From: Fischerella sp. PCC 9431
Lineage (GTDB): Bacteria > Cyanobacteriota > Cyanobacteriia > Cyanobacteriales > Nostocaceae
DNA: 64,000 bases
Assembly (NCBI RefSeq): GCF_000447295.1
Contig: NZ_KE650771.1
Coordinates: 6,374,295-6,438,294, forward strand
Direction of reading: 5' to 3'
Positions within the stretch are counted from its first letter, which is position 1; every line of letters starts with the position of its first letter. The notes below the pieces were generated by a model that had not been told where the DNA came from, did no database searches, and worked only from the letters and a program-made list of their open reading frames with translations. This document shows positions 6,816 through 64,000 of this stretch, piece by piece. A program made the translations under genes and the position numbers.

Positions 6816-6872
6816 ATTTATCCTCTTGAGTTTATTGCTGCTCCTAATGATCTGTCCCATTAATTTTGTGAG

Positions 6873-34360: not shown

Positions 34361-34418
34361 AATCTCCTCCAAAGGGTTTGATTCTGAGTTCGATAAATAT
34401 AGTTATAGAAAAATAACA

Positions 34419-35596: not shown

Positions 35597-35815
35597 TTAA
35601 GTAGATGATTGCTCCATTTTTTTCCTCAAACTTAAGGGTCTCATATCAGTCCACAGTTCTTTAATGTATTCTAGGCATTCTGATTTGAGTCCACATTTAC
35701 CTACATCTTTCCAACCAAGGGCATTTTCTCGGTCAGCAGGCCAAATAGAATATTGTTCCTCATCATTAACTACAACTTTATAAATTGTTGTATCTTCTGA
35801 AGTTGTTTGCATCAT
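35597..35815 (-). CDS. MbtH-like protein
   Basis: A 72-residue MbtH-like protein with the family signature: Y-K-V-V-V-N-D-E-E-Q-Y-S-I-W-P, then GWKDVGKCGLKSECLEYIKELWTDMRPLSLRKKM. The conserved S-x-W-P, G-W, G-x-K-x-E-C-L-x-Y-I and W-T-D-M-R-P-x-S residues are all present. MbtH-like proteins bind NRPS adenylation domains and help them fold and activate amino acids. It is the last gene of the NRPS string, 38 bases after the aminotransferase gene, so it is probably co-transcribed and serves the synthetases upstream. Confidence 0.93.
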   Translation of the reverse strand: MMQTTSEDTTIYKVVVNDEEQYSIWPADRENALGWKDVGKCGLKSECLEYIKELWTDMRPLSLRKKMEQSST

Positions 35816-35852
35816 TTTATATCCTATTAATTTCTATTATTTAACTTAAATT

Positions 35853-37307
35853 TTAAACAGAAGCACAAGAAGGTAGAAAACCTCCAGATTTTAATTGTTC
35901 TACACTATCCTTAACCGCTTGAAGAATGTAATTGATATCTTCATCTGTATGGGCTGTAGATAAATAACCGCTAACACCTAAAAGATGAACTCCCTGAGCA
36001 AGTAAATGATATTTTAATAAGTCCATAGCTAATGAAGCAGCAGAATTTTCTTCAGAAATTTCTAAAGATGCAGAACCAAAGAGTGAGCCAAAGTTTGCCA
36101 TTTGTAGGGGTAGACCTTCTATTGTTAAATAATTATTTAAAGCAGCGACGAATTTTGTTGTACGTTCATTCAATTTTTGATGCAATGATGAGCCTTCACT
36201 TTGCAGATATTTCAGAACTGCTTTTGCAGCTATCATTGCTAAGGGATGCTTACAAAAAGTACCCGCAAAAAATGTTTTTTTCGTTTGAGGGTAAGAATCA
36301 TCGCCATAGTTCCACACACCTCCATCAATTGCATCCATATATTTACTTTTACCAGCAATCAACCCTATTGGCATTCCACCGCCAACAATTTTTCCATAAG
36401 TAGCTATATCTGCTTGTAAACCAAAATAAGCTTGCGCGCCACCAGGATGAATGCGAAATCCTGTCACCATTTCATCAAAAATTAAAGCGATTTCAGTTGC
36501 TTGTGTTAATTCCCGTAACTGGTGCAGAAATTCCTTTGGCTGTAAACCCGGTCTACTAGTTTGTACAGGAACTACTAAAACTGCTGCTAAGTCTTGCTGA
36601 TGAGTTTTAATAATTTCTAATGATTCAGGATTGCCATACTCTAACACCAAAACATCATTAACAAAGTTTGGTAATACTCCAGGTGTTAATGGTATTGCAG
36701 AGTGATTATTTTCTACTTTATTAGCTTTAATTAAAGTGCCATCAAAATGACCATGATAAGAACCTGAAAAAATAACGATTTTGTTACGTCCTGTAACTGC
36801 TCTAGCAATGCGAATAGCAGACATGACTGCTTCTGTACCTGTATTGCTAAAACAAACTCTTTCCATACCAGTGAGTTGAGCAACTAACTCAGCTACCTCA
36901 CCAACAACTTCTGATTGAGGGCCAATTTGAATTCCTTTATCCAGTTGAGCGATTAAAGCTTCTTTAATAAAAGATGGGTTATGACCAAAAAGATTGATAC
37001 CCAACCCCATGATTACATCTACATATTCATTACCGTCTACATCCCAAATTTTAGAACCCAAAGAACAATGAGCAACTATGGGATAATACATTTCTTTGAA
37101 GAGTAAATTAAAATCTCCTAAATTTTTATCATCAGCTAAAAATGGGCGGGAATTTTGTGAAATTTGCTTTGATTTTTTCGTGCGATCGCTGTAGCGATTG
37201 ATAAAATCTCGCAAATACTTTTGTTGCTGGTTAGTAAGTCCTGCTGTAGCTAACAGCTTGGTTAAATTGTCTGAATGTTGAGGTAATGTAACTTTTGGTG
37301 CATTCAT
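35853..37307 (-). CDS. GSA-type aminotransferase acting after reductive release (predicted)
   Basis: A 484-residue class III PLP aminotransferase of the glutamate-1-semialdehyde type. It shows CSLGSKIWDVDGNEYVDVIMGLGINLFGH, the PLP site FSNTGTEAVMSAIRIARAVTGR, SYHGHFDGTLI, the Asp in LIFDEMVTGFR, the lysine in ATYGKIVGGGMPIGLIAG and KKTFFAGTFCKHPLAM. The last wording matches aminotransferase domains in microcystin-type synthetases. About 60 extra N-terminal residues precede the fold. It lies immediately downstream of the NRPS that ends in a thioester reductase. In myxochelin biosynthesis such a stand-alone enzyme (MxcL) converts the aldehyde released by the reductase into an amine. I infer the same here for a prolinal-ended peptide. 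Confidence 0.82.
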   Translation of the reverse strand: MNAPKVTLPQHSDNLTKLLATAGLTNQQQKYLRDFINRYSDRTKKSKQISQNSRPFLADDKNLGDFNLLFKEMYYPIVAHCSLGSKIWDVDGNEYVDVIMGLGINLFGHNPSFIKEALIAQLDKGIQIGPQSEVVGEVAELVAQLTGMERVCFSNTGTEAVMSAIRIARAVTGRNKIVIFSGSYHGHFDGTLIKANKVENNHSAIPLTPGVLPNFVNDVLVLEYGNPESLEIIKTHQQDLAAVLVVPVQTSRPGLQPKEFLHQLRELTQATEIALIFDEMVTGFRIHPGGAQAYFGLQADIATYGKIVGGGMPIGLIAGKSKYMDAIDGGVWNYGDDSYPQTKKTFFAGTFCKHPLAMIAAKAVLKYLQSEGSSLHQKLNERTTKFVAALNNYLTIEGLPLQMANFGSLFGSASLEISEENSAASLAMDLLKYHLLAQGVHLLGVSGYLSTAHTDEDINYILQAVKDSVEQLKSGGFLPSCASV

Positions 37308-37362
37308 TAAATTTTTTCTGTTGATTTAATAATTAGCTGTTGAATTTTGTACTTTTTCGATT

Positions 37363-40300
37363 TCACACTTGATTAGCCAATAAGCCCTGGTTAATCAGAT
37401 GCGAAAAGTAAACGTTTAGTAACTGATCGTCTACTGGAGGACAAGTAATCGAAGTATCTACTAAGCCATTAATAACGTTTTGGTTATCCAACTGTAAAAA
37501 TTCTGAACTGGAATTTTCTCTTTGAGCTTGTCTTGCTGGGAAAAATGGCACTAATGAATATAAAGGATGCTCTCGTGAACCTTGAGTAATATTGAGTAAT
37601 TTTTCTCGCCAACGATCATAACAAATTTGCTCAATTGGATAACCTAATGAGCGAATGTGTTCTATTAGCTGGCTAGAATGGAGTGTTTGATGGTGTACTA
37701 AGTGAAAGTTTTTACCTAAAGATTCATCCTGCTGAGATAAATGAACTATTGCTTTGCTGGCATAATCAATAGGAATTATATTCTCTCTAATATCTCCATC
37801 GGATACGCTTCCAAGTTGGATACAACCAATTATCAATTTGTACAAAAAGTCATTGACATTAAAGACACCAGTTTGACTATGACCTGATATTCTTGATAGT
37901 CTATAAATACAAACTGGAATACCCCGTTCTCTAGCAATGTTTACTATTTTCTCAGCGACCCATTTAGTCTGAACATAACCATTATCAAGCTCTTGGATAT
38001 CATCTATACTGTCTTCTTCTCTAAAGAGTTTAACTCCTAACTTCCGCAATGAAGACAAAACACCAACAGTAGAAATAAAATGTACAGGTTTGACTTTTGT
38101 TTTACTTGCTAGTCTTAAAACTTCTTGGGTACCAATAACATTAGCTGCTTTCAGTATGGAGTAAGGATAAATATGATGAACCCAAGCACCATTATGATAG
38201 ATAACATCAACTGTACTTGCGATTTGTTGAAACTCATCTTCAGAAAGTCCCAAAAGTGGCTCAGACAAATCTCCTATTACTGGAATAATTCTGGTGTTGA
38301 AATTGTCGTTCCAAATTAGATAGTCTGCAAGAGACTTTTGGAGCTTTTTCTTACCTTCCTCGGCATTTGCTGAACGTACTAGGCAGTAGATCTCAGCTTG
38401 AGTTTGCTGTAAAAGTTCATAAAGTAAAAAAGCACCTAGAAAACCAGTTGCACCTGTCAAAAATATGCGGTTTGGCTTAGTTCTTGCAACCACGGGGTAA
38501 TATTCTGGAATAATAGTAGAATCCAGAATAGCTTCATCTTTCAGATTCTCAACAATTTCTTGGCTAACAGTTGTAGAGGCTTGAGCATGTATAATTTGCT
38601 CTATTCTCTCGGCTAACGCTGCCACAGTGGGTGACTCAAACAAAACCCGTAAGGGTAGATCCACCTGTAAAGTTTCCTGGATATTGAGCATTAGCCTAGT
38701 TGTTAGCAAGGAATGCCCCCCTAGTTCAAAAAAGTTGTCATGAATGCAGACTTTCTCTAGTCCGAGAACCTGAGACCAGATTCTAGCTAATGTTTTCTCA
38801 ATCTCACTACGAGGATTTACAAAAGCTGCTTCAATTTCGGATCTTTTAGTTTCAGGTGCTGGTAATCTCCGACTGTCTACTTTTCCACTCGGTGTTAGGG
38901 GTAGCGACTCTAGCACTACAAAAGCTGACGGCATCATATAGCTAGGTAAATGTTGCTGTATAAGGCCGCGCAATTCATCTACTTTCAGAATATTTTGCAT
39001 ATTTTCTTTGTTAGGGACGATATAAGCAACTAGACGTTTGTCCTCTGGAATGTCTTCACGAACAATGACTATTGCCTGTCGCACTAGCAGATGTTGTTCT
39101 AAAACAGCTTCTATTTCCCTTGGCTCAATACGGAAGCCGCGAATCTTTGTTTGCTGATCAATACGACCCAGAAATTCAATGTTGCCATTTGGCAGATACC
39201 GCGCTTGGTCACCCGTTTTGTATAGCCTCTCACCCAATTTGGGAGAGAATGGGTTGGGAATAAACTTTTCTGCCGTCAGATCAGAACGATTTAGGTAACC
39301 CCTTGCCAAGCTTACTCCACCAATATACAGTTCCCCTGGAACATTGACCGGAACAGGCTGCAACTGAGAGTCCAGCAAGTAAATTTGGGTGTTGGCTATC
39401 GGGCTACCAATGGCAGGCAAAACTGGCCAATTCTTAGGTAAGCCTGTAAGGTTAAATGCGGTAACTACATGGCTTTCGGAAGGCCCGTAGTGATTATGCA
39501 AAGTACAGTTTTGCAGCTGTTTAAACCAATTAGAAATTGATGAAGTAATGCGTAACTGTTCGCCAGCTACAATTACCTCTCGCAAACTAGGGGGTATAAT
39601 ACCTTGAGCTTCACCGACCTCTGCTATCTGTTTGAGAGCAACAAAGGGAAGAAATAGTCTTTCAATGCAAGTCTCATTAATATAGTTGAGCAAACTCAAT
39701 GGATCTCGTCGCATTTCTTCTGAGATCAACACAAGAGTTCCGCCAGAGGCAAAAGTAGAGAATATTTCCTGGAAAGAAACGTCAAAGCTGATAGGAGTAA
39801 ACTGTAGGGTTTTGCCAGCTGCACCAATCACTGTGTGTTCTAATTGCCAAGTAATTAAGTTAACCAGAGGTAGGTGAAGCATGGCCACACCTTTGGGTTG
39901 GCCTGTGGAACCAGAGGTGTAGATAACATATGCCAGGTTGTTTGCGGTGACGGCACTGTCGAGATTAGAGATACTATACTGAGCGATTGTTTGCTGATGG
40001 CTATCGAGACAAATGCAATGTATGTTGTGTGTTGGTAAAGTCTCTAAGAGATGATTTTGAGTAAGCAGGATAGAAGCTTGGGAGTTTTCCAGCATGAATT
40101 TGAGACGTTCTTCTGGATACAAGGGATCGAGAGGCAAGTAAGCACTTCCAGCTTTGAGAATGGCAAGGAGTGCGATCGCCAGATCCACAGATCGCTCCAT
40201 GCAAATTCCGACTATTACTTCTGGTCCTACTCCCAGAGTTTGCAGATAATTTGCCAATTGGTTTGCGCGAGAATTTAGTTCCCGATATATTAGTTGTTGG

Positions 40301-41877
40301 TTTTGAAACACCACCGCAACTGCATCAGGTGTTTTCTCTACCTGAGCTTCAAATAATTGATGAATGCACTGCTCTTGAGGGTAATCAATTTCAGTATTAT
40401 TCCACTCTACTAATATTTGATGTTGCTCATTTGCTGTTAACAGTGGTAAGCCTGACAGACGCTGCTGGGGATTAGCAACAATTCCCTCTAACAAAACCTG
40501 AAAATGACCCAACATGCGGGTAATTGTGGCATTATCAAATATATCTGTTTTGTATTCTAAAATTCCTTGCAATCCTTCGTCAGTTTCTGATAGGAAAAAA
40601 ACAATATCAAATTTTGCAGTATTTTTTTCTGTTGTTAATGGTTGTAACGTTAATTCTGGCAACCGGATAACTTCTGTTGTTGCATTCTCCAGTACGAACA
40701 TAACTTGAAACAAGGGACTATGGCTTAAATCCCGCCCTGGTTGTAGCTCTTCTACTAACCGTTCAAAGGGCAACTCTTGATGAGCATAAGCAGCCAAAGT
40801 TACTTCACGTACCTGCTGCAATAGTTCTCGAACAGTGAGATTATTAGCCAGATTGGTACGCAGTACCAAAGTATTGATAAAAAAGCCGATTAGCCCTTCT
40901 ATTTCTGAACGATTGCGGTTTGCAATGGGAGTACCTACTATAATGTCTTCCTGCTGGGTGTAGCGGTACAGCAATACTTTAAATGCGGCCAGCAGAGTCA
41001 TAAATAAAGTGACTCCCTCTTGTTGAGAGAGGTTTTTGAGTGCTGCTGTCAGCGACTGAGACAGTAAAAAAAATTCGTTTGCACCTCGGTTAGTTTGAAT
41101 TGCTGGACGTGGGCGATCTGTAGGTAACTCTAATACTGGTAAATCGCCGCCTAACTGTTGCTTCCAATAGTTTAACTGGGTGTTTAAAACTTCTCCTTGT
41201 AACCATTGGCGTTGCCAAACTGCAAAATCAACATACTGAATAGGTAATTCCGGTAAATTGTGCGGCTGACCACTACTGTAGGCTGTGTAAAGTGTAGTCA
41301 TTTCGCGGATAAGTATTCCTGCTGACCAACCATCGGAAACGATATGGTGCATGGTAAACAAGATTACATGATCTGTCTCACCCAGACGTAACAGACTAAC
41401 TCGTAGTAGTAAGTCTTTTTCTAGGTTGAAGGGTGTTTGTGCCTCTAAGGTTACCAGACGCAAGGCTTCTGTTTCCTGTTCGGTTTCGGGAGTAGTCTGC
41501 AAATCAATGATTTGTAGTGGTAGCTTGGCTGTTGCATCAATTACTTGAACTGGTTCTCCATCTACTACTGCAAATGTAGTGCGTAAGATTTCATGACGAC
41601 GCACTATTTCATTGATGCTGTTTTCTAGGGCTGCTACATTTAATTTGCCTTTTAAGCGGATGGCGGTGGGGATGTTATAGGCACTGCTTTGGGGTTCTAA
41701 TTGGCTAATGAACCATAGCCTTTGTTGGGCAAATGATAAGGGAAAAGTCTGAGTATCTCGGTTGTGGGGTTTAATTTTGGTTTCTGAAACTTTGCCTTTT
41801 TGCTGGTTGAGTTTTTGCAGTAAAAGTGCGCGCTTTTCTGGAGATAGTTCAGCAATTTTTTGCAGCAGGTTACTCAT
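37363..41877 (-). CDS. NRPS C-A(Pro)-PCP-TD, terminal module with reductase
   Basis: A 1504-residue synthetase. The condensation domain is at about 45-480 (PLSFAQQRLWFISQLEP, intact MHHIVSDGWSAG). The adenylation domain is at about 490-1000 (YVIYTSGSTGQPKGVAM, NHYGPSESHVV). PCP is at about 1030-1100 (NFFELGGHSLLTTRLM). The thioester reductase is at about 1140-1480, with the NADPH motif FLTGATGFLG and the Y-x-x-x-K pair in YVQTKWVAEK. The specificity residues read D-V-Q-F-I-A-H-V-V-K, the code I associate with proline. The domain order makes this the last module: it adds Pro and releases the peptide as an aldehyde (or alcohol). It lies 22 bases after the His-like module gene and 55 bases before the aminotransferase gene. 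Confidence 0.92.
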   Translation of the reverse strand: MSNLLQKIAELSPEKRALLLQKLNQQKGKVSETKIKPHNRDTQTFPLSFAQQRLWFISQLEPQSSAYNIPTAIRLKGKLNVAALENSINEIVRRHEILRTTFAVVDGEPVQVIDATAKLPLQIIDLQTTPETEQETEALRLVTLEAQTPFNLEKDLLLRVSLLRLGETDHVILFTMHHIVSDGWSAGILIREMTTLYTAYSSGQPHNLPELPIQYVDFAVWQRQWLQGEVLNTQLNYWKQQLGGDLPVLELPTDRPRPAIQTNRGANEFFLLSQSLTAALKNLSQQEGVTLFMTLLAAFKVLLYRYTQQEDIIVGTPIANRNRSEIEGLIGFFINTLVLRTNLANNLTVRELLQQVREVTLAAYAHQELPFERLVEELQPGRDLSHSPLFQVMFVLENATTEVIRLPELTLQPLTTEKNTAKFDIVFFLSETDEGLQGILEYKTDIFDNATITRMLGHFQVLLEGIVANPQQRLSGLPLLTANEQHQILVEWNNTEIDYPQEQCIHQLFEAQVEKTPDAVAVVFQNQQLIYRELNSRANQLANYLQTLGVGPEVIVGICMERSVDLAIALLAILKAGSAYLPLDPLYPEERLKFMLENSQASILLTQNHLLETLPTHNIHCICLDSHQQTIAQYSISNLDSAVTANNLAYVIYTSGSTGQPKGVAMLHLPLVNLITWQLEHTVIGAAGKTLQFTPISFDVSFQEIFSTFASGGTLVLISEEMRRDPLSLLNYINETCIERLFLPFVALKQIAEVGEAQGIIPPSLREVIVAGEQLRITSSISNWFKQLQNCTLHNHYGPSESHVVTAFNLTGLPKNWPVLPAIGSPIANTQIYLLDSQLQPVPVNVPGELYIGGVSLARGYLNRSDLTAEKFIPNPFSPKLGERLYKTGDQARYLPNGNIEFLGRIDQQTKIRGFRIEPREIEAVLEQHLLVRQAIVIVREDIPEDKRLVAYIVPNKENMQNILKVDELRGLIQQHLPSYMMPSAFVVLESLPLTPSGKVDSRRLPAPETKRSEIEAAFVNPRSEIEKTLARIWSQVLGLEKVCIHDNFFELGGHSLLTTRLMLNIQETLQVDLPLRVLFESPTVAALAERIEQIIHAQASTTVSQEIVENLKDEAILDSTIIPEYYPVVARTKPNRIFLTGATGFLGAFLLYELLQQTQAEIYCLVRSANAEEGKKKLQKSLADYLIWNDNFNTRIIPVIGDLSEPLLGLSEDEFQQIASTVDVIYHNGAWVHHIYPYSILKAANVIGTQEVLRLASKTKVKPVHFISTVGVLSSLRKLGVKLFREEDSIDDIQELDNGYVQTKWVAEKIVNIARERGIPVCIYRLSRISGHSQTGVFNVNDFLYKLIIGCIQLGSVSDGDIRENIIPIDYASKAIVHLSQQDESLGKNFHLVHHQTLHSSQLIEHIRSLGYPIEQICYDRWREKLLNITQGSREHPLYSLVPFFPARQAQRENSSSEFLQLDNQNVINGLVDTSITCPPVDDQLLNVYFSHLINQGLLANQV

Positions 41878-41899
41878 GTAATTTTTAACTCCTAGTGAA

Positions 41900-44800
41900 C
41901 TATTGGCTGTCGGTTAGTATTAATTGGATATCTTCGTCGGATAATTCTTCTAATTCAGCAAGCGATCGCGCTAAACTTTCATCATCGACTTGCTCGGCTA
42001 GTTTTTGGGTAACAATTACAGAGAAATCAGCTACTGTAGGATTTGAAAAAACATCCTGTATGAATAATTCCACACCCAAAATATCCCGCATTCGAGATAT
42101 CAATTGAGTCACCAACAGAGAATGTCCACCCAAGGCAAAAAAGTTATTGTATATACCTACTTTTTCTATTCTTAATACTTCTGCCCAAATAGCTGCCAAC
42201 TGTTCCTCAAGAGAATTGCGGGGGGCAACATAAGATTCATCAATCCATGTATTGACCTGATCCGGTGCGGGTAAAGCCCGTCTATCTACCTTGCCATTTG
42301 CTGTTAATGGTAAAGCCTGCAAAGATACAAAAACCGCAGGTATCATGAAATCAGGTAGTTTTTCTTGTAGAAAACTACGCAGTTCATTCGCTCTAGAATT
42401 TGATTCTGGTTGAAGAACTATATAAGCAACCAAATTTTGATTACCTGATACATCTTCACGCGCAATAACTACTGTTTCCTTAACTTCAGGATGTTGATTC
42501 AGAGCAGTTTCAATCTCACCTAATTCAATCCGAAAACCGCGAATTTTTACTTGGTTGTCAATGCGTCCTAAAAACTCAATATTGCTATCATTGAGATATC
42601 GCGCTAAATCCCCAGTTTTATACAGACGCATTCCTGGTTTTTGGCTAAAGGGGTGAGGAATGAATTTCTCAGATGTAATTGCAGGCTGATTTAAATAACC
42701 TCTGGCTAAACCTTCACCACTAATATAAATTTCGCCAGTAACGCCAACAGGAACTGGATGTAAGTGAGAGTCTAGTATATATATTTGTGTATTTGCTATG
42801 GGAGAACCAATAGATATTTGCGTTCCAGTTGCTAAAGATTGACAATGGTATACACTACTCCAAACAGTTGCTTCTGTCGGCCCGTACTCGTTAAATAAAG
42901 ATGCTTCCAACTGCAACCGAGAGTGATGTTGTAACAATTCGGGTGGACAAGCTTCACCTGCAACTATGACAGAACATAGGGAATTTAACTGTGCTGGTTT
43001 TGCTTGTTGCAAGATTAAAGCGTATAGAGAAGGAAGGCTTAATAAATGGGAAATACGATTTTGGAAAATTAACTCTACGAGTTTAGGTACTTCCCGTTGC
43101 ACACCCTCTGCTGGTAAATGTAGAGTTCCACCACAAGAAAGTGTCCAAAAAATACCTGCAACTGAACTATCAAACGCAAAGGATGAGAGCAATAAAAAGT
43201 TAGTGACAGGTTCTTGATAGTAGGAAATACGTGCAGTTGTGGAGTGAACTAGGTTATGATGTGCGATCGCAACTCCTTTGGGTTGACCTGTAGAACCAGA
43301 AGTGTAGATTACATAAGCCAAGTTCTCAGGAGATGCTGTAAAAATAGGGTTTTCCTGACTCTCTTGTGCGATAGTCTCCCAATCTGTATCTAAACAAATT
43401 ATCTGTGCATTATGCTGGGGTAAGCTTTTTAATAAATGCTGCTGAGTCAGTAATATAGATACTTGTGTATCTTCTAGCATAAAAGCTAAACGCTCTTGGG
43501 GATAGTGCGGATCGAGAGGAATATAAACACCACCAGCTTTGAGAATACCCAAAATACCAATGAGCATTTCGAGCGATCGCTCAACACTAATTCCCACTAA
43601 TACTTCTGCACCTACCCCCAAGCTTTGCAAGTAATGAGCTAGTTGATTTGCACGCCTATTCAGTTCAGTATAAGTAAGTTGCTGGTTGTTAAATACAATG
43701 GCGATATTATCTGGTGTGCGTTCTACTTGCTCTACAAATAGCTGATGAATAAACTTATTTTTTGGATAATTAGTCTCAGTTTTATTGAACTCAAATAGAA
43801 TTTGGTGTAAAGTGCGATCGCTTAAAATATTGAGCCTACTAATTACCTCTTCTGGGTTATTAATAACAGTGGCTATTAACTGATTAAAATTCTCTGCTAT
43901 GAGTTCAATACTCTCGTCATTAAATAAATTAGAGTCATAATGAAACTCTAGATTCAAAACCTCAGCTTGCTGTTTACAAGAAAGCTTAATTTTAAACCTT
44001 TCGATACAAGTGTAGTGCTGCTCAATAGAAAACTTTACATTCCTCACATAATAAATAACAGATTCTTGTTGAAAATCAAACCCAAAAGGCAAATAAGTTA
44101 ATTGTGTAGCAGAAGAATTAATTTGCTCCCAGCTAAAACATTCTTGCCATTTATTTATTTCTTCTACCGATTCATTTACTTGTTGTAAAACTTTGCTAAA
44201 ACTTAAATTCTCTTCTAAATGAGAGTGTAGCGGAAGATACTTAGCAAACAAACCTAACGCACTTTTTAACTCATCATATTTTCTACCATCTATCCCTACA
44301 CCTATAATAATTTCTGATTTTTCAAGCAACCGCCACAGTAAAACTTGCCAGCAAGCCAGAAGAAATATAGAACTCGAAATATTAGATTTTTTAGCTATAT
44401 TTTCTATTTTTTGCACCAAATCATTATCGATTAATGAATTGATAGCTTTTGGCTCAAACTCATGCTTATCTGAATTATTAATTTCATAAGGGAGCTTTAC
44501 AGTATCAACAATAGATAAGTTTTGCTGTAACCAATATTTTCTGCCAATATCTGTTTCTTCTGCTTCCAATATTTGGTTTTGCCATTCTGAAAAATCTGCA
44601 TATTGTAGCGGTTCTTCAGATAATTCACTGTTCAAATCACCTGAGTAAGCACTAGCAACTTCTCGCATTAAATTATGCAGAGTGATAGTATCACTACAAA
44701 TTGCAGGTAAACTCAGATATAAAAGATGCTTATCTGAGGAGAGAGTAATCAAAGCAGTCTGTAAATTGAAACCATTCTCTAAATCAAAAGGTAGACATTT

Positions 44801-45130: not shown

Positions 45131-45181
45131 TTTAATTACTCTTGAATTTATTTTTATTTATACTGATTGATGTTTGTGGTT

Positions 45182-46234: not shown

Positions 46235-46286
46235 TGCTTATATCCTGTATTTGTTCAGTCAAATATTGCAAATTAATCAAAATAGT

Positions 46287-53833: not shown

Positions 53834-53889
53834 TCTATCTATCCTTTAATCTCTGACAGACAATTATTAGCAATAATTTGTGAAAAATT

Positions 53890-55185: not shown

Positions 55186-55314
55186 GTGTATATCTCCGTA
55201 AAATTATTATTTGTCAAAATGATTAATGCTGTAAATTTTACTCTTCCTGGATATATATGCCTGAGAACAGGCAAATTTTATTTTTATTCATTGAAGCCGA
55301 TTTATAATTACAAC

Positions 55315-58300
55315 TTAATCACAAAAATTAAATGTTGCTTCTTGTTCCAATATCGATGCAAATTGCTGCTCTTGTTCTGTCAGTAACTCTAAATCCCCAA
55401 GACAGACATCAGGATTATTTACTATGTTTTTTAGCAAGATATTAAAATGTTTCAAAATGCCATTAATAGTGGCAATATCAACACGATTAAAATCGTAATT
55501 TATGCCGATTACCAAAGGAGAATCTGGAATGACAACAACAGTGATAGGATAATTAATTTTGTAAAAGTTGCTGGAATCTGGAACTTGGATACTTCTTTGT
55601 CCTTCTTTTAAGGATTCGGGTATTGGCAAGTTTTCAAAGACGACGATGCTATCAAATAAAGACATACCTCGTGGTACTTGGCTCCAAGCTTGAAGTTCTA
55701 CCAGAGAAGTGTATTCGTACTGACGCATTTCCAGTAATTGAGACTGAAGCTGTTGAAGCCACATAAGCAAAGGTTGCTGAAGATCTACCTTAACTCTTAC
55801 AGGTAAGGTGTTGACTAACATCCCTACAATTGATTCTGCTCCTGCAAGTTCTGGTGGACGGCCTGAAACTGTACATCCGTAAACTACTTCTTTTTGACCG
55901 CTATAGCAGCCCAGAAGAAAAGCCCAGGCTCCTTGAATAATTGTGTTCAGTGTTATTCGATGCTGCTTGGCGAAGGAATACAATGCTGCTGTTGTTTCTG
56001 TTGAGAGCGTAATTTGTTGGTCGTCGTATTTTTCTTCTTGGTTGGATAAACCATCAATGTATAGATTTGTTAGAGATGTGGGTACTTGAAATCCACTTAG
56101 TAAGCGTCGCCAAAATACTTCTGCTTGAGATATATTTTGCTGTTGTAGCCACTCAATGTAGTTGCGGAAGGAAGTGCTGGGGGCTAAGTCTCCATCTTGA
56201 CCTTGACAAAGCGCTTCGTAAATTTGCACTACTTCGCCTAATATCAATGGTATTGACCATCCATCAGCAACGATAAAATGTCTACTCCAAACAAACTCAT
56301 AATATTCGTCGCCAAAACGAAATAGAGTCAGGCGCATCAAAGGTACTTGGGACAAATCAAAACCACAAGCGCGATCGCTTGCCAAAAATGACTTTAATTG
56401 ACGTTGCTGTTCATTGGGATCTATAACCCGCCAGTCTTGCTGTTGGACAGGAACGTTTACTTTTTTGTATACCACTTCTAATGGTTGCTTAAGATCTTGC
56501 CAATGAAAGCTGGTGCGTAAGATTGTGTGTCTTTCTACTACTTGCTGCCAAGCCTGCTCAAAAGCTTCAACGTTGAGGACTCCTTGCAAAGCAAGCCGCG
56601 TTTGAAATAAATAAAGTCCTAATTCAGGAGCATACAAACTATGGAAGAGGATGCCTTTTTGTACTGGTGTGAGTTCGTAAATATCTTCGATGTTTTCTAT
56701 TGGTAGCCCAGCAGTTAACTTGTCCAGCAAAGAATAGTCAATAGCGCTCCGAGATGACGAACTAGGTGTTGGCGTTGAGCTTTGGGAGATATTGGCAACA
56801 GCCGCTAGCCCAGCGACTGTAGGTTTCTCGAACATCTGTTTGGGTGTGATTTTTATCCCAGCTTGGTTAGCTCTGGCGGCGATTTGAATTGTCATGATAG
56901 AATCCCCGCCTAGTTCAAAGAAATTATCATTGATGCCGACTCGCTCAATTTGCAGCACTTGCGCCCAAATGTTGGCAATTGTTTCTTCTGTGGGAGTGCG
57001 GGGTGGCGTGAATGTCTGTGCTAACTCTGGTCTAGCTTGATCGGGATCTGGCAATGCTTGACGATCAACTTTACCATTAGATGTGAGAGGCAGCTTCTTC
57101 AGTTGCACAAAAGCTGAGGGGATCATGTAATCTGGCAGTTTTTGCTTGAGGAAGTTGCGGAGATCGCTGACCGCAATTGTAGGTTGATGTGGAACAAAAT
57201 ACGCAATTAAACGTTTGTTGTCTGATTCGTCTGCCCGTGCGATAACGGCTGTTTCTCTGATAGCAGAATGTTGTTGCAGTACTGATTCAATTTCACCCAG
57301 TTCGATGCGATAACCGCGAATCTTGACTTGCTGGTCAATACGCCCTAAGAACTCGATGTTGCCATCAGGAAGATAACGAGCTAAATCTCCTGTTTTGTAT
57401 AATCGCGCACCCGGTTCATGACTAAAGGGATTGGCAAAAAATTTTTGTTTTGTAAGTTCGGCTTGGTTGAGATAACCTCGTGCTAAACTATCTCCGCCAA
57501 TGTGTATTTCTCCTGGTACGCCAATTGGTAAAGGTTGTAGATGATGGTCGAGAATATAAATTTGAATATTGCCCAGTGGACGACCTAAAGGTACTGTCTC
57601 TGATGATTCTGGAGTCAATTCATCATTGAGCAAATAGGTGAGAACACCAACAGTTGCTTCTGTAGGCCCGTAATGGTTGATAATTTGGCAGTTTGGCGCG
57701 TATTGCTGAAGTTTTGCAACTAAGTTCCAAGAGAGTGGTTCACCACCAAGTATTAGGTAATTTCTGGGTAAGATTTTTTCTGGCTGGGAAGCAGTTAACA
57801 GCGCGTTGACATGGGAAGGTACAATTTTAAGGCAGTCAATTGGATGGCGATCGCAATATTCTAGTAAGGCTTCTGGATTAGTTGCCCGTTCATGAGAAAT
57901 TACATGCAGACATCCGCCTGTACAGAGAGCGAGGAAGATGGCAGTGTTACCTAAATCTGCTGCAATGGTAGAAATTGTAGCAAAATTAGCTTGCTCTGGT
58001 AGTTTTAATTTATCTAAAATTCCCTGCACATAGTTGAGCAGTTGCCGCTGCTCAACAGCAACACCTTTTGGTTTACCTGTAGAACCAGATGTAAACAGCA
58101 CATAGACTAAGTTCTCAATTTTCGTGCTGCTTATGGGATTAACATCTGGGCATTGTGCAATCATATCCCAGTCTGTGTCTATGCAGACTACTTGAGCAAC
58201 ATCAATTGCTAGAGCATCTGCTAATTGATGTTGTGTTAATAAAATAGCTGCTTGGGCATCTTGCAATCGGAAGGACAAGCTTTCTTTTGGTAATACCGGG

Positions 58301-59904
58301 TCTAGTGGTAGATAGGCTCCTCCTGCTTTGAGAATAGCTAACAGTCCAATCATCATGTCTAAGGAGCGTTCTATACACAGCCCAACTACAACTTCAGGTT
58401 TTACTCCCAGTTGTCGCAAATAGTGGGCTAGTTGATTGGCTTTGCTATTCAGTTGGGTATAAGTAAGTTGCTCATTTTCATAGACAACAGCAATTTGATT
58501 TGGTGTTGTAGCTGCTTGTTCGGCAAATATTTCGTGAATACACTTAGCTGATATGTAATCTCTGCGTGTTTGATTAAACTCGAAGAGGAGTTGTTGGCGA
58601 TCGCTTGGTGAAAGAATTTCTAATTGAGAGATAAGAGTTTGTGGTTCGGCAAGCGCACTGTTTAACAAAGTGTGAAACTGTCTAGCTAAACGTTGAACAG
58701 CCTCAGATGAGTAATAATTTACATCATAATAAAATTCGGCAACTAAAGAGCGATCGCTTGAAGTACAGTCCAGTTTAACTTTGAATGGTTCAATACAGCT
58801 ATACAGTTTATCGATAGCAAATGATACACCAGCAGTAGAACATTTTTCAGGCAATTGCCTAAACTCAAAACCGATAGGAAAAGCTAAAAAGTTATTTTCT
58901 TGAGATTCTGGCACAAAATAGTCTTGCCATTCAGTAGCATTTTCTAATATTTGTGCTACTGCTGTTAATACTTCTATAAAGTTTAAGTTAGGTGTAAATT
59001 TAGTTTTAATTGGTAGCCAAGTTGCTAATAGTCCTAATGTATCATGAAGCTCTTCATATTCACGGCGATCGCTTGCTTTACCAATGACTATTTCTGACTC
59101 TCCTGTGAGCCTCCAAATTATGATTTTCCAACAAGTTAGTAAGATAATATCAAGTGTTATATTATAGTTTTGAGCAAAGTAATAAATTTTGTCATATAAT
59201 TCTTGGCTAATAACTAACTGATAACTATAAATGACAAATTGCTTACTCTTTCCTTGCCGTTCATGAGGTAATTTTAAGCTTGGTAAAGCACTAATTTTTT
59301 GTTGAGCCCAATATTCTTGAGCTTCTGCTGCATCTTCATCTGTGATTAATTGATTTTGCCATTCAGAAAATTGTACATACTGTACATATTTCTCGTTTAA
59401 TACTTTACCTTGGCAATATTGCTCGTAAGCTTGACTAATTTGTTTAACTAAATTTTTGATGGTTTTAGTATCAGCACATATTGCAGGTAACGAAATTATT
59501 AAAACATGCTGATTTTCTGATAGTTTGATTAAATTCAAATACAGTGGTGAGGGTTGAGAGATATTTTGATGTTCCTGTCTAGCTGCCCAAAATAATTCTT
59601 GAATTTTTGTAGAAATATTTTCCTGAGAACAATTACTTAAATCTAGATAGTTCCAAGTAAATAAATTCTGATCTGCAACTACCATCACTGGAGTTTTTAC
59701 TCCTGGTAGGCAATAAAAACTTGTTCTCAGGATGTCGTGATGATTAACAATTTGCTCAATAGCCTTTTGTAGAATCTCTAGTTGGAGATTACCTTCAATC
59801 AAAATACTAGCTTGTGAATAGAAAGCGGAACTATTTTGTTGTAAATTCCATAGTCTTTTTTGTTGAGGTGCGAGCCGAAAGCCGCTAATAGTTTCTGTTT
59901 GCAT
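55315..59904 (-). CDS. NRPS C*-A(Asp)-PCP-C(dual-type, HF variant)
   Basis: About 1529 residues from the Met at 59904 (MQTETISGFRLAPQQ), chosen by likeness to the start of the gene at 45130. The order is C* (about 1-440), with ISLPAICADTKTI in place of HHxxxDG; an adenylation domain (about 450-960, YVLFTSGSTGKPKGVAV, NHYGPTEATVG); PCP (about 1000-1070, NNFFELGGDSIMTIQIA); and a dual-type C domain (about 1085-1520, IYELTPVQKGILFHSLYAPE). The second C domain shows SRHFIVADGWS, so the catalytic second His is Phe. The specificity code D-L-T-K-I-G-H-V-G-K is the Asp type. It directly follows the fused TauD domain of the upstream synthetase, so beta-hydroxyaspartate is the predicted product. The PCP has GGDS, usual before dual C domains. 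Confidence 0.9.
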   Translation of the reverse strand: MQTETISGFRLAPQQKRLWNLQQNSSAFYSQASILIEGNLQLEILQKAIEQIVNHHDILRTSFYCLPGVKTPVMVVADQNLFTWNYLDLSNCSQENISTKIQELFWAARQEHQNISQPSPLYLNLIKLSENQHVLIISLPAICADTKTIKNLVKQISQAYEQYCQGKVLNEKYVQYVQFSEWQNQLITDEDAAEAQEYWAQQKISALPSLKLPHERQGKSKQFVIYSYQLVISQELYDKIYYFAQNYNITLDIILLTCWKIIIWRLTGESEIVIGKASDRREYEELHDTLGLLATWLPIKTKFTPNLNFIEVLTAVAQILENATEWQDYFVPESQENNFLAFPIGFEFRQLPEKCSTAGVSFAIDKLYSCIEPFKVKLDCTSSDRSLVAEFYYDVNYYSSEAVQRLARQFHTLLNSALAEPQTLISQLEILSPSDRQQLLFEFNQTRRDYISAKCIHEIFAEQAATTPNQIAVVYENEQLTYTQLNSKANQLAHYLRQLGVKPEVVVGLCIERSLDMMIGLLAILKAGGAYLPLDPVLPKESLSFRLQDAQAAILLTQHQLADALAIDVAQVVCIDTDWDMIAQCPDVNPISSTKIENLVYVLFTSGSTGKPKGVAVEQRQLLNYVQGILDKLKLPEQANFATISTIAADLGNTAIFLALCTGGCLHVISHERATNPEALLEYCDRHPIDCLKIVPSHVNALLTASQPEKILPRNYLILGGEPLSWNLVAKLQQYAPNCQIINHYGPTEATVGVLTYLLNDELTPESSETVPLGRPLGNIQIYILDHHLQPLPIGVPGEIHIGGDSLARGYLNQAELTKQKFFANPFSHEPGARLYKTGDLARYLPDGNIEFLGRIDQQVKIRGYRIELGEIESVLQQHSAIRETAVIARADESDNKRLIAYFVPHQPTIAVSDLRNFLKQKLPDYMIPSAFVQLKKLPLTSNGKVDRQALPDPDQARPELAQTFTPPRTPTEETIANIWAQVLQIERVGINDNFFELGGDSIMTIQIAARANQAGIKITPKQMFEKPTVAGLAAVANISQSSTPTPSSSSRSAIDYSLLDKLTAGLPIENIEDIYELTPVQKGILFHSLYAPELGLYLFQTRLALQGVLNVEAFEQAWQQVVERHTILRTSFHWQDLKQPLEVVYKKVNVPVQQQDWRVIDPNEQQRQLKSFLASDRACGFDLSQVPLMRLTLFRFGDEYYEFVWSRHFIVADGWSIPLILGEVVQIYEALCQGQDGDLAPSTSFRNYIEWLQQQNISQAEVFWRRLLSGFQVPTSLTNLYIDGLSNQEEKYDDQQITLSTETTAALYSFAKQHRITLNTIIQGAWAFLLGCYSGQKEVVYGCTVSGRPPELAGAESIVGMLVNTLPVRVKVDLQQPLLMWLQQLQSQLLEMRQYEYTSLVELQAWSQVPRGMSLFDSIVVFENLPIPESLKEGQRSIQVPDSSNFYKINYPITVVVIPDSPLVIGINYDFNRVDIATINGILKHFNILLKNIVNNPDVCLGDLELLTEQEQQFASILEQEATFNFCD

Positions 59905-59976
59905 ATTGAGGGTGAGGGAATTTTTTAACACAGAGGGGCGTGGAGTGCGTGCAGAGTAAACGCAGAGTTTTAGTTT

Positions 59977-62900
59977 TTAAGGAGTTTTAATATCTTTACC
60001 ATTAGTCATTTCTCCCATTGCAACAACGATTTTACGCTGACCAACAAAGGGATTTCTGCCGTGAGCAGCCAGCATATTATCTAGCATAATAATGTCACCT
60101 TTTTGCCAAGGGAAGCTAGTGTGCGATCGCTGATATACTGCATTAATTTCGGCGATTTCGTTTTCTGTAATCGGTGTACCGTCACCAAAGTAAACGTTAC
60201 GAGGTAATTTTGATTCACCAAATATTGATAGTAGTGATTCTCTAACACCTGTATCTAAATATGAGATATGGTGTAATTGAATTTGGTTGAAAAATACAGG
60301 TTCGCCAGTTTTGGGATGTACTGCTAAAGCTGGGCGAATTTGTCGAGTTACTAAGCCATTATCATCATACCATTCAAATTCCATTCCCGCTTGACGGCAA
60401 TAATTTTCTACTTCATTTTTATCTGTGGTCTGGAAAAAGTTCTGCCAACTAACATCTAAACCCTCAGCAAAATTTCTCACATACATTAACTGTTTGTTGG
60501 CTAATTTTTCTCGCAATTGCAGACTGAGTAATTGATAAGCTTTACGACAGTCAACAATTGGGGTTTCTCCACCGATCGCCGCAGGTTGAACACAGTAAAA
60601 CCAAATTTTCAAGGGGAAGCAATGTAAATGAGAGCTTTCATTATGAAAAAGGATCGCTTTATCTGCTGGGTAAGGAGTAGAACCATAAACTTTACCACCT
60701 TCATCTGTGCGCGGTAAGTCGCCATATTCAGCAAATAAATTAGAACAAATTGTTTGAGCGAAGTTTTCAAACTCTGAAACTAATTTTACATTAAAATCTC
60801 TAAATAAAATCGCTCCATGTTTAAATAATTCTGTTTCTAGATATGCTCGATTATTTTCAGCCCAAGAGATTAAATCAACTTCTGCACTATTAGGCTTAAT
60901 TAGAAGTGGAAATTTTTGCCCCTCTTGCAGATAATCTGTTTTAATTAATTGCTCTACTGACAGACTCACTGTTTTAGGAGCAATAGTCATAAACTTTTGT
61001 CTTTTAGCTGCTTTACGCTCCTGTTGTTGCATAGTTTGTTTTACCTTTTCTGCTTCTGTGAGCATTTCTAATGTATTGATCCGGCTTTGAGGTTGAGCCA
61101 CAATGCTATTGATTAATATTTGCCACTGGTTTGTAAATTGAGTGATAGTATCTACTGCAAATAAATCGGCGTTATATTGCCATTTACCTTCTATACCTTG
61201 CTCAGTTTCTGTGAGAAACAAAGCTAAATCAAATCTGGCACTTCTGCCTTCTAGTTCCAGTAAATTTAAGGTAAGTCCTGGTAATTCTAAGGCTGAGTTT
61301 GGTGTATTTTGCAAAACAAACAACACCTGGAATAACGGCACAAGATTGGTTAAATGGCGTTCAGGTTGTAATTCTCTAACTAACTCGTCAAAAGGTAAAT
61401 CTTGATGAGCATAAGCTGCTAATGTTTGGGTGCGAACACGTTGTAATAACTCTAGGAAGGTGGGATTACCACTTAAATCTGTGCGTAAGACTAATAAGTT
61501 AACGAAGAATCCGATTAATTCTTCAATTTCTGCTTGATTGCGGTTGGCAACATCAGTACCAACAACAATATCGTCTTGTTTACAGTAACGTTGCAGCAAG
61601 ATTTTAAAACTTGCTAGCAGTGTCATGAATAAGGTTACACCTGCTTGTTGAGAAAGTGATCGTACTTCTTGCACCACTGACGCAGGTATCACAAAACTAT
61701 GACTAGCACCCCAGTTAGTCTTCACTTCAGCGTAGGGACGAGTTGTGGGGAGTTGCAAAATAGGTAAGTTTGCCAATTGCTGCTTCCAGTAACTGATTAA
61801 AGCTTCTCGTCTTTCACCTTGCAAATATTGACGTTGCCAAATTGCGAAGTCTGCATACTGGATGGGTAATGCTGGTAAAGAAGAAGGTTTTCCAACAGCA
61901 AAGGCGGTATAAAGCGCTGCTATCTCCCTAATTAATATACCCTTTGACCAACCATCAAAAACGATATGGTGGATAGTAAATAATAAAATGTGTTCTTGTG
62001 CGCTTAACTGCAAAAGTGTGCATCTCAGCAAAGGTGCTTGTGTAAAATCAAAGGGATTTTGGAATTCCTTAATACTTAGATTTCGTATTTCTGCCTCTTG
62101 TTCAGCTTTAGGCAATTTGTGCAAGTCCACCACAGGTATTTTTATCTGCACCTGGGGAACAATTACCTGTAAAGGTTGCCCATCTACGGAAGTGAAGCTA
62201 GTACGTAATACTTCATGACGGCGAATAATTTCGTTTATGCTTTGCTCTAATGCCTTTATATTCAACTCACCGACAAGGCGAACTTTTGCTGGCATATTGT
62301 AAATACTGCTATCAGGATTTAGCTGTTCTAGTAACCATAATCTTGCTTGGGCAAAAGATAGAGGTAAATTGCGATCGCGCGGAACAGATTTAATAGCAGA
62401 AACACCCTGATGACTGGTTTGTTGAATATTTTTAGCTAATTCTGCAATGCTTGGAAATTCAAATAAACACTGAAGTGCTAAATCTACCCCAAAAGTTTTG
62501 CGAATACGAGAAATAACTTGAGTTGCTAATAAAGAATGTCCACCTAGTTCAAAGAAATTGTCGTAAATACCAACTTGAAAAACCCCCAGAACTTGAGTCC
62601 AAATTCCCGCTAATACTTCTTCTATCGGATGACGAGGAGCAACAAAAGTACTTGTTACTTCCCGACTAATATTTTCCGGTGCGGGTAAAGCGCGCCGATT
62701 TACCTTACCGTTGAAAGTTAAAGGTAGAAAATCTAAGAAGACAAAAACGCTGGGTATCATGTACTCAGGCAGCTTTTGCCGTAAATACTGGCGCAGTCCA
62801 TCAGTAGCGGCGTTTTCAGCAACTAAATAAGCAACTAAACGCTGATTTCCTGGTACATCTTCCCGCACTATCACTACACCTTGACGTACTGCGGGATGCT

Positions 62901-64000
62901 GTTCTAAGACCGCTTCAATTTCGCCTAATTCAATACGAAATCCTCGAAGTTTAACTTGATAATCAATGCGCCCTAAGTATTCAATTTCTCCATTGGGAAG
63001 ATAACGGGCTAAATCTCCAGTTTTGTATATACAGCTTTCTGAGCCAGAACCGAAAGGATTAGGAATAAACTTTTCCTGAGTAAGTTCAGGTTGATTAAAA
63101 TAACCCCGTGCTAAACCTGTGCCACCAATATACAGTTCTCCAGTGATACCTACAGGTACAGGTTGCAAAGACTTGTCTAAGATATAAATTTGGGTATTAG
63201 CTATAGGACGACCAATAGGAACTATAGCTTCACGCTCATCTACTTGATGAATGGTAGACCAAATAGTTGTTTCTGTAGGGCCGTATAAATTCCAGACACT
63301 AGCAGCCTTTTGACATAACTGTGAGGCTAAGTTTTGGGGTAAAGCTTCGCCACCACAGAGAATTTTGAGTTGTGTATTTCCTTCCCAGCCTGTATCTAAT
63401 AACATTCGCCAAGTTGCAGGGGTAGCTTGCATGATGGTTACAGCTGAATTATTTAGTTTTTGGAATAACTGGATGCCGTCTGTTGCAACTTCGCGACTGA
63501 CTAAAATTAATTTAGCTCCTGTTACTAAGGGAAGGAAGATTTCTAAAACCGCAATATCAAAAGATAGGGTAGTTACTGACAGTAGACTGTCTGTATTTGT
63601 TAATTGCAAATTCTGCTGCATTGCAGTGAGGAAATTTACCACACTGCGATGGATAATTTGTACACCTTTGGGTTTACCCGTAGAACCAGAAGTATAAATT
63701 ATGTAACTCAAATTACTTGAATCAACTTTGCTGTTAACTAAGTTTGCTTGATATACGGTGATGCTTTCCCATTCGCTATCTAAACAGATAACTTGGGCGT
63801 AGTGGGGTGGAAGATTTTGTAGTAAATGTTGCTGGGTTAATAAGACTGAGATTTGCGAGTCTTCCAACATGAACGCTAAACGCCCTGGAGGGAAACTAGG
63901 ATCTAGAGGGATGTATGCACCACCAGCTTTGAGAGTTCCTATGAGAGCGATAATCATGTCAAGCGATCGCTCTATACAAATCCCCACCAATACTTCTGGT
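59977..64000 (-). CDS. NRPS ...A(Gly)-PCP-C-TauD fusion, cut by the window edge
   Basis: About 1340 residues are visible and the frame is open to the right edge, so the start lies outside. The visible part begins inside an adenylation domain (to about 430; YIIYTSGSTGKPKGVQI, WNLYGPTETTIW) with code D-I-L-Q-L-G-L-I-W-K, the glycine type. PCP follows (about 470-535, NNFFELGGHSLLATQVI), then an intact C domain (about 540-975, IHHIVFDGWSKG). A SyrP/TauD hydroxylase (about 1005-1337) has H-N-E iron ligands in ILFHNESSHLHCFPLKIWFYC and the distal His in LAAHGRNPFVGQRKIVVAMGE. Glycine cannot be beta-hydroxylated, so the oxygenase must act on the next residue, Asp. A fused C-TauD is rare, and the split version at 45182-51095 supports a common origin. 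Confidence 0.9.
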   Translation of the reverse strand, partial: PEVLVGICIERSLDMIIALIGTLKAGGAYIPLDPSFPPGRLAFMLEDSQISVLLTQQHLLQNLPPHYAQVICLDSEWESITVYQANLVNSKVDSSNLSYIIYTSGSTGKPKGVQIIHRSVVNFLTAMQQNLQLTNTDSLLSVTTLSFDIAVLEIFLPLVTGAKLILVSREVATDGIQLFQKLNNSAVTIMQATPATWRMLLDTGWEGNTQLKILCGGEALPQNLASQLCQKAASVWNLYGPTETTIWSTIHQVDEREAIVPIGRPIANTQIYILDKSLQPVPVGITGELYIGGTGLARGYFNQPELTQEKFIPNPFGSGSESCIYKTGDLARYLPNGEIEYLGRIDYQVKLRGFRIELGEIEAVLEQHPAVRQGVVIVREDVPGNQRLVAYLVAENAATDGLRQYLRQKLPEYMIPSVFVFLDFLPLTFNGKVNRRALPAPENISREVTSTFVAPRHPIEEVLAGIWTQVLGVFQVGIYDNFFELGGHSLLATQVISRIRKTFGVDLALQCLFEFPSIAELAKNIQQTSHQGVSAIKSVPRDRNLPLSFAQARLWLLEQLNPDSSIYNMPAKVRLVGELNIKALEQSINEIIRRHEVLRTSFTSVDGQPLQVIVPQVQIKIPVVDLHKLPKAEQEAEIRNLSIKEFQNPFDFTQAPLLRCTLLQLSAQEHILLFTIHHIVFDGWSKGILIREIAALYTAFAVGKPSSLPALPIQYADFAIWQRQYLQGERREALISYWKQQLANLPILQLPTTRPYAEVKTNWGASHSFVIPASVVQEVRSLSQQAGVTLFMTLLASFKILLQRYCKQDDIVVGTDVANRNQAEIEELIGFFVNLLVLRTDLSGNPTFLELLQRVRTQTLAAYAHQDLPFDELVRELQPERHLTNLVPLFQVLFVLQNTPNSALELPGLTLNLLELEGRSARFDLALFLTETEQGIEGKWQYNADLFAVDTITQFTNQWQILINSIVAQPQSRINTLEMLTEAEKVKQTMQQQERKAAKRQKFMTIAPKTVSLSVEQLIKTDYLQEGQKFPLLIKPNSAEVDLISWAENNRAYLETELFKHGAILFRDFNVKLVSEFENFAQTICSNLFAEYGDLPRTDEGGKVYGSTPYPADKAILFHNESSHLHCFPLKIWFYCVQPAAIGGETPIVDCRKAYQLLSLQLREKLANKQLMYVRNFAEGLDVSWQNFFQTTDKNEVENYCRQAGMEFEWYDDNGLVTRQIRPALAVHPKTGEPVFFNQIQLHHISYLDTGVRESLLSIFGESKLPRNVYFGDGTPITENEIAEINAVYQRSHTSFPWQKGDIIMLDNMLAAHGRNPFVGQRKIVVAMGEMTNGKDIKTP

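Follow-up and report, generated by a model that had tools for sequence, protein, structure and literature searches.

A cyanochelin-like gene cluster in Fischerella sp. PCC 9431 predicted to make a mixed beta-hydroxy-Asp/beta-hydroxy-His lipopeptide siderophore

We analyzed a stretch of 64,000 nucleotides (the window) from the 7.17-Mb genome of the cyanobacterium Fischerella sp. PCC 9431 (contig NZ_KE650771.1; G000:C1:6374295-6438294), the right-hand part of which carries a candidate siderophore cluster of nonribosomal peptide synthetase (NRPS) genes. Reading was continued for 49.7 kb to the right, and coordinates above 64000 are window coordinates carried on along the same contig. An initial annotation of the window had placed further modules beyond its right edge, and indeed the cluster extends 14 kb farther, with a fatty acyl-AMP ligase (FAAL) start, an extra NRPS module, a third dioxygenase, and a polyketide synthase (PKS). 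The domains are condensation (C), adenylation (A), peptidyl or acyl carrier protein (PCP, ACP), ketosynthase (KS), acyltransferase (AT), ketoreductase (KR), and epimerization (E) domains; C* denotes a C-like domain without the HHxxxD motif. All assembly-line genes lie on the minus strand, separated by gaps of -4 to 157 bases. In transcription order, a FAAL-ACP-C-A(DMTKIGEVG)-PCP protein (72666-78050) is followed by a 291-amino-acid TauD dioxygenase (71729-72604) and a PKS module, KS-AT-KR-PCP-E (65572-71571), whose E label rests on likeness and on its place in one 14-row E clade. The same ending, a PCP and an epimerization-type domain, is seen in loci L031, L036, L037, L039, and G201 and in Nostoc sp. 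NIES-3756. The next protein, C-A(Gly, DILQLGLIW)-PCP-C-TauD hydroxylase (59977-65535), crosses the window edge at 64000 and carries its hydroxylase (PF02668) at the C terminus, at about 59980-60945. It precedes C*-A(Asp, DLTKIGHVG)-PCP-C (55315-59931), in which the first C domain is interface-like and the last has the variant motif RHFIVADGW.

Downstream of these come a diaminobutyrate-2-oxoglutarate transaminase for diaminobutyrate (Dab) supply (53890-55185; EctB equivalog TIGR02407, 571 bits against a cut-off of 552), and a protein with the C-terminal half of a C domain (PF00668 positions 188 to 456 only) followed by A(Dab, DIWEITADD)-PCP (51092-53833). The half C domain before A(Dab) recurs in G201, G315, L049, and L108, and the whole unit of variant C domain, Dab transaminase, and half C-A(Dab) recurs in G201, G315, and L049; L108 has an active C domain instead. 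A TubC-type docking domain opens the next protein, C-A(Ser, DVWHISLID)-PCP-C (46287-51095), which ends in an active C domain. It is followed by a free TauD hydroxylase of the Fe(II)/2-oxoglutarate type, a putative His beta-hydroxylase (45182-46234; PF02668), and by C*-A(His, DSALIAEVW)-PCP (41900-45130), which starts with an interface-like C domain. The line closes with a terminal module, C-A(Pro, DVQFIAHVV)-PCP-thioester reductase (37363-41877; TIGR01746, 342 bits against a cut-off of 213), and a class III aminotransferase of 484 amino acids (35853-37307; PF00202). The terminal Pro, reductase, and aminotransferase are where the initial annotation had placed them, and its prediction of reductive release is supported.

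The six A-domain codes of the window read, in transcription order, Gly, Asp, Dab, Ser, His, and Pro, and all six domains have the A10 lysine. Five of the six match the initial annotation; at the His-like position the fourth letter is L (DSALIAEVW), where the annotation had S (DSASIAEVWK). The Ser and Pro assignments rest on codes that we take to be standard, and the code of the first A domain of the cluster, DMTKIGEVG, is presumably of the Asn type. The Dab assignment is supported by the EctB-like transaminase gene within the cluster. The Gly and Asp A domains have nine-letter codes (DILQLGLIW and DLTKIGHVG) identical to those in the cyanochelin B cluster of Leptolyngbya sp. NIES-3755, taken from the plasmid record; in cyanochelin B, Gly and two beta-hydroxy-Asp residues were established by nuclear magnetic resonance (PMC12628792, partial text). 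The code DSALIAEVWK is printed as a His code accepting beta-hydroxylation (PMC12283262, partial text), and the partner of the free hydroxylase is predicted to activate His by code only, that is, by DSALIAEVW plus the A10 Lys. DMTKIGEVG resembles DLTKIGEVGK, which stands in the Asp/Asn section of the same source and is there also said to fit beta-cyano-alanine.

Two TauD hydroxylases before the Asp and His-like modules had been noted initially, and both the fused and the free enzyme are confirmed by PF02668 and carry the HxE...H motif. We compared them with hydroxylases from other loci, of which L014 to L048 were picked by similarity to the window hydroxylase and the later ones were mostly best matches among 388 genomes of the order; the frequencies below are therefore biased toward the window hydroxylase. 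The 102 TauD matches became 96 once six duplicate rows, from contigs already represented, had been removed (L016, L019, L023, L026, and L110), and comprise 84 cyanobacterial rows and 12 from outside the cyanobacteria, which were counted separately. Across 81 cyanobacterial rows (291-amino-acid type excluded), the C-like domain directly after the hydroxylase lacked HHxxxD in all 80 of the rows that showed it; the motif was present in the C domain preceding the hydroxylase in 77 of 77. A FastTree phylogeny of 138 C domains from 20 sources likewise had only inactive domains after a hydroxylase (35 of 35), with two label changes needed. Such an interface-domain layout, a hydroxylase and then a C-like domain without the catalytic motif, was reportedly described by Reitz et al. 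in 2019. The window hydroxylases fit this layout of interface-associated beta-hydroxylases (IBH), the free enzyme lying between the active C domain that ends the Ser protein and the C* domain that begins the His protein. The Reitz et al. work is cited in PMC12230676 (partial text).

The identity of the hydroxylase also covaries with the code of the module that follows. All 23 hydroxylases at least 60% identical to the free enzyme of the window (itself counted) pair with a His code. TauD2-type hydroxylases are fused in 16 of 18 cases, and all 16 readable codes are of the Asp type (2 of the 18 were unread). TauD3-type hydroxylases, which are less similar, are followed by an Asn-like code in 17 of 40 rows. 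In a tree of 95 of the 102 rows, from which identical rows and rows shorter than 270 amino acids were excluded, the His label (27 rows) needs two changes, against a mean of 23.8 for shuffled labels. The free enzyme falls in a 23-row, all-His clade with support of 100/100, made up of 22 cyanobacterial rows and one alphaproteobacterial, His-coded row from Methylocystis bryophila (L127) on a long branch; its closest named match is from Mojavia pulchra (94% identity). The remaining four His-coded rows form a separate, second clade, to which the L107 hydroxylase, 61% identical to the window enzyme, belongs. The fused enzyme, which precedes an Asp-coded module, sits in the fused Asp clade. In one alignment column, the main His clade has Gly in 22 of its 23 rows and Ser in one, and Gly occurs in none of the 72 remaining rows; the free hydroxylase of cyanochelin B has Cys there. 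Loss of Arg was tried as a mark of His specificity and discarded, as Asp rows have Arg (22), Cys (9), or Ala (1) and Arg is present in all four rows of the second His clade. An IBH_His enzyme class is named in PMC12971057 (eLife 2026, partial text), together with several unreported hydroxylase clades, which may include that of the window. The beta-hydroxy-Asp and beta-hydroxy-His residues of the initial annotation are upheld by the printed His code, the agreement of hydroxylase tree and codes, and the codes and layout of the cyanochelin B cluster. Only one Asp module is served by an interface-type hydroxylase; the first module combines an ambiguous code with a different dioxygenase nearby.

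The initial annotation had seen no TonB receptor and had proposed looking beyond 64000 for a starter, a receptor, and an exporter. There is indeed no receptor in the window; together with the FAAL start, both genes were found farther right. A TonB-dependent siderophore receptor (78862-81912; TIGR01783, 405 bits against 223.5) lies 14.9 kb past the right end, divergent from the FAAL gene, and is followed by a major facilitator superfamily (MFS) protein (82065-83396), a FhuF-like protein (83433-84311), a Peripla_BP_2 binding protein (84605-85600), a FecE-like ATPase (85636-86433), two FecCD permeases (86446-88505), and a penicillin-amidase-family acylase with, by eye, a hydrophobic N terminus (88782-90905). 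A TonB receptor and ferric-siderophore transport genes adjoining the cluster are a feature of the cyanochelin type. Among seven long relative clusters, six have a TonB-type receptor at the FAAL end; in G353 it lies at the other end, the FAAL end being beyond the stretch fetched. The solved chains nearest to the acylase are cephalosporin and glutaryl-7-ACA acylases (675 bits), with PvdQ also matched (233 bits). PvdQ removes the acyl chain of a pyoverdine precursor. Acylase homologues lie beside five of the seven long relatives (G315, G330, G094, G383, and G327, the last two near-copies of each other) and five of seven clusters ending in an ornithine-type (Orn-type) code (L155, L156, L159, L160, and L161), flank lengths being unequal in both sets, and also on the NIES-3756 and L. 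boryana plasmids. Beside this cassette, two large ABC-transporter-like proteins and a HlyD-like protein (91342-98425) resemble, by eye, a peptide secretion system.

Fur-type control of the cluster is suggestive. The Fur-type pattern TGATAATNATTATCA (15 positions, the free one scored as a match) reaches 13 in the FAAL/TonB region, a score equaled or bettered by 2 of 150 shuffles; it also reaches 13 in G330 (0 of 150) and G094 (1 of 150) and 11 to 12 in five other regions. A 19-base Escherichia coli-type Fur pattern stands out only in G330 (0 of 150), and an Anabaena FurA pattern in none of the regions scored; these are 24 tests in all, uncorrected for multiple testing.

Among the known systems most like this locus is the cyanochelin B cluster on plasmid 2 of Leptolyngbya sp. 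NIES-3755 (AP017310.1; PMC12628792, partial text), which shares the FAAL start of a PKS/NRPS hybrid, Gly modules, a reductase end, adjacent TonB, ABC, and MFS genes, and a fused hydroxylase followed by an inactive C domain and A(Asp), an arrangement also found after its free hydroxylase. The structure differs in having no His, Dab, or Pro, a thiazoline, and a Gly reduced to ethanolamine at the end, and the word aminotransferase is absent from the main text of that paper. Gene order is shared with plasmid pNOS3756_1 of Nostoc sp. NIES-3756 (NZ_AP017296.1), which runs acylase (by annotation only), FecCDE, binding protein, FhuF, MFS, TonB, FAAL, A(DMTKIGEVG), 291-amino-acid dioxygenase, PKS, Gly, fused hydroxylase, Asp. 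Identity to the present locus is 78 to 93% for FAAL and the domains after it, as far as the fused hydroxylase, and for MFS to FecC; it is lower for the TonB barrel (46%), AMIN domain (68%), interface domain (66%), and A(Asp) (60%). The plasmid differs by an added methyltransferase, a later hydroxylated residue with an Asn/Asp-type code, no His code read, and an end made of the Orn-type code DVGEIGSID, a reductase, and an aldo/keto reductase. Mojavia pulchra (L014), Richelia sinica FACHB-800 (L016/G201), and PCC 7702 (L019/G315) have a His hydroxylase 83 to 94% identical to that of the window, the His code, a reductase, and an aminotransferase, and the latter two share the variant C domain, Dab transaminase, and half C unit; all three differ in that the reductase comes directly after His, with no Pro. 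Corrugatin-type and other proteobacterial beta-hydroxy-His siderophores use this residue as a ligand and have a hydroxylase with an interface domain, a likeness at the level of description.

The cluster is far from alone. A His module with its hydroxylase was read in 25 other cyanobacterial clusters, where the element after the His module is a reductase in 15, a PKS module in 4, an E domain and then a reductase in 1, other modules with codes other than Pro in 4, and unreadable in 1 (L112, in which the frame breaks inside the A domain and the next code is not reached). Another locus, L164, has His, reductase, and aminotransferase, with no hydroxylase in view. Pro between hydroxy-His and reductase was found in none of the 24 other clusters with a readable next element, which rules it out as a feature of the family. 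The Pro A domain has no close kin among the compared loci (best 54%), and the C domain of its module is 76% identical to C domains of Mojavia and NIES-3756. In a domain-by-domain comparison with 11 loci, the NIES-3756 plasmid is the nearest relative for the stretch that starts with FAAL and ends with the fused hydroxylase, and for most uptake genes, except for the TonB barrel (G201, 77% versus 46%), one C domain (G330, 84% versus 82%), and the PKS AT (G201, 85% versus 84%). The Asp-Dab stretch is closest to G201 and G315, and the Ser-hydroxy-His stretch to Mojavia; for the C and A domains of the His module, G330 and G201 are almost equally close. Seven genomes have an end that we take to load Orn, with the terminal A code DVGE(I/V)GSID in all seven. 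These genomes (G229, G382, G316, G365, G339, G119, and G017) end in a hydroxylase, an Asn-like code, C-A-PCP-reductase, and an aminotransferase, and the terminal protein is 58 to 59% identical to the whole terminal protein of the window. Since domains along the cluster are closest to different relatives, this is a recombining family, of which the window is one shuffle. The initial annotation had considered the composition new for cyanobacteria. The exact composition, with Pro after hydroxy-His in a mosaic order, is a new variant, but this cyanochelin-like kind of cluster is already known. In the literature we found no cyanobacterial beta-hydroxy-His siderophore, although most subscription journals lay outside the search.

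We read the locus as quite probably the assembly line of a mixed-ligand lipopeptide siderophore of the cyanochelin kind, the class proposed initially. The reading is well supported by the uptake and export cassette, the printed His code, the match of hydroxylase tree to A code, and the codes and layout common with cyanochelin B. The FAAL would activate a fatty acid and join it to an Asn/Asp-type residue, after which the chain would gain one ketoreduced PKS extension unit and then Gly, beta-hydroxy-Asp, Dab, Ser, beta-hydroxy-His, and Pro. The substrate of each hydroxylase would be the amino acid tethered to the carrier protein one module further on. The C-like domain behind the enzyme would serve as its dock, and the active C domain ahead of it would form the peptide bond; for hydroxy-His this would be the C domain ending the Ser protein. 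The reductase would release an aldehyde, which the aminotransferase would convert to a terminal amine. Export of the peptide would presumably fall to the MFS protein. Uptake of the ferric complex would use the TonB receptor, the binding protein, and FecCDE, with the iron then set free by the FhuF-like reductase, and trimming of the fatty tail may be the task of the acylase. The sequence itself shows the genes, their domains, codes, order, and neighbors, and the covariation of hydroxylase and code; the residues, their hydroxylation, the docking, the amine end, the part played by the acylase, and iron as the metal are inferred from it.

The end group is where this scheme meets its main rival. 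MxcL aminates the aldehyde in the myxochelin B pathway, and the window has the corresponding pair of a reductase-ended NRPS and a partner aminotransferase. The thioester reductase carries GxxGxxG and YxxxK, and the terminal NRPS matches MxcG at 802 bits, under the equivalog cut-off of 2300, so it is no MxcG, though it may function in a similar way. We consider amination of the aldehyde the first choice, in part by analogy. It is unlikely, but well worth considering, that the product is a siderophore whose reductase instead carries out a four-electron reduction to the alcohol prolinol, the aminotransferase acting elsewhere, for example, on a keto group. Among solved chains, the aminotransferase is nearest to mycosubtilin synthase subunit A, with a score of 507 bits; glutamate-1-semialdehyde aminomutase scores 202 bits. 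The mycosubtilin aminotransferase is a PKS-type enzyme with keto groups as substrates. In NIES-3756, an aldo/keto reductase occupies the place of the aminotransferase, and the ethanolamine of cyanochelin B comes from a Gly module with a reductase (PMC12628792, partial text). In contrast, of the 15 other clusters with a reductase directly after His, 14 have the aminotransferase gene behind it (the stretch of the 15th, L104, ends first), as do the 7 clusters with an Orn-type code and reductase, which argues for amination.

Three other alternatives were weighed. A membrane-active or signaling lipopeptide with beta-hydroxy-Asp or -Asn, its transport genes being unrelated neighbors, would fit the Asn-like pairing of some TauD3-type rows, and the exclusion of syringomycin-type clusters in PMC12971057 (partial text), with turnercyclamycin named as a false positive, indicates that beta-hydroxy-Asp hydroxylases also serve nonsiderophore lipopeptides. 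We hold this very improbable because of the transport cassette, which adjoins the FAAL gene, recurs in the same order on the NIES-3756 plasmid, and has receptors beside all seven long relatives. That the metal is chiefly copper or zinc, which hydroxy-His and imidazole peptides may serve, is improbable too: the predicted peptide has imidazole donors, and other cyanobacterial PKS/NRPS metallophores, fatuamide A and lusichelins, bind copper, but the cassette holds a FhuF-like ferric reductase and a siderophore-type receptor, and the hydroxy-Asp half matches an iron siderophore. We give similarly little credence to the idea that the His-coded module loads or hydroxylates something else and the free enzyme is not a His hydroxylase. 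Code readings are fallible, and the four hydroxylases of the second His clade have Arg at the tell-tale position, like Asn-paired and most Asp-paired enzymes; yet the exact code is printed as His with beta-hydroxylation (PMC12283262, partial text) and the pairing of enzyme and code is tight.

Several observations weigh against the siderophore scheme. Three proteobacterial (plasmid) hydroxylases precede an active C domain, so the interface layout is not universal, and His and Asp enzymes are not fully told apart by any one alignment position (two positions recounted). The first residue is ambiguous between Asn and Asp by its code, the HHxxxDG motif of the C domain ahead of Dab has its second His replaced by Phe (a form kept in G201, G315, and L049), and the signal for Fur control is no more than suggestive. 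Moreover, the interface-type hydroxylases account for only two of the three bidentate ligands of six-coordinate iron, and five of the seven long relatives have three such hydroxylases where the window has two; in those five, the further enzyme could supply the third ligand.

The 291-amino-acid dioxygenase was considered as a beta-hydroxy-Asp enzyme, but this is unsupported, as it has no following interface domain and lies on a distant branch of the tree. It is rare, present in 5 of 291 genomes at an E value of 1e-50 or better (that of the window counted). Its counterpart in G201, a cluster with a first A code of the Ser type, is 80% identical. Genes of this type lie beside an AMIN-domain (receptor-like) or acylase gene in L138 and L140 and beside an aminotransferase and PKS in L139. 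The enzyme may act near the lipid end. A wider proposal, which we hold tentatively and rate somewhat short of probable, is that cyanobacteria have their own His beta-hydroxylase clade, marked by Gly, that builds a widespread, structurally unreported family of siderophores combining hydroxy-Asp with hydroxy-His and ending in an amine. The window would hold a recombinant member, in which a Pro-reductase module has taken the place of the usual terminus and the ligand otherwise lacking comes, at the lipid end, from the unrelated third dioxygenase.

Elsewhere in the window, just left of the cluster and not counted in it, is a 608-amino-acid protein with a pyridoxal-dependent decarboxylase domain (32546-34372). 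A photosystem II D1 protein (24694-25821, aligned to 9m5a_A) deviates from the standard D1: Glu replaces Asp in GSFSDG, Asn replaces Glu in QAEHN, and, near the C terminus, Ala, Ile, and Ser replace Glu, Asp, and Ala, respectively; we take these to be manganese-ligand positions, and the protein looks like a "rogue" D1. An eCIS_core-domain protein near an AAA ATPase with a winged-helix domain (5070-6899 and 7695-9818) is possibly associated with a contractile injection system, and a 223-amino-acid protein (29980-30651) has the N-terminal domain of the GmrSD restriction enzyme.

If the siderophore reading is true, the iron chemistry of heterocyst-forming cyanobacteria includes beta-hydroxy-His, and the hydroxylase clade and A-domain code together would predict the hydroxylated residue. 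Beta-hydroxy-Asp makes such siderophores light sensitive. Its partial replacement by beta-hydroxy-His could change photolysis and hence how much iron is kept by the producer or leaked to its neighbors, a question already raised for cyanochelin B (PMC12628792, partial text).

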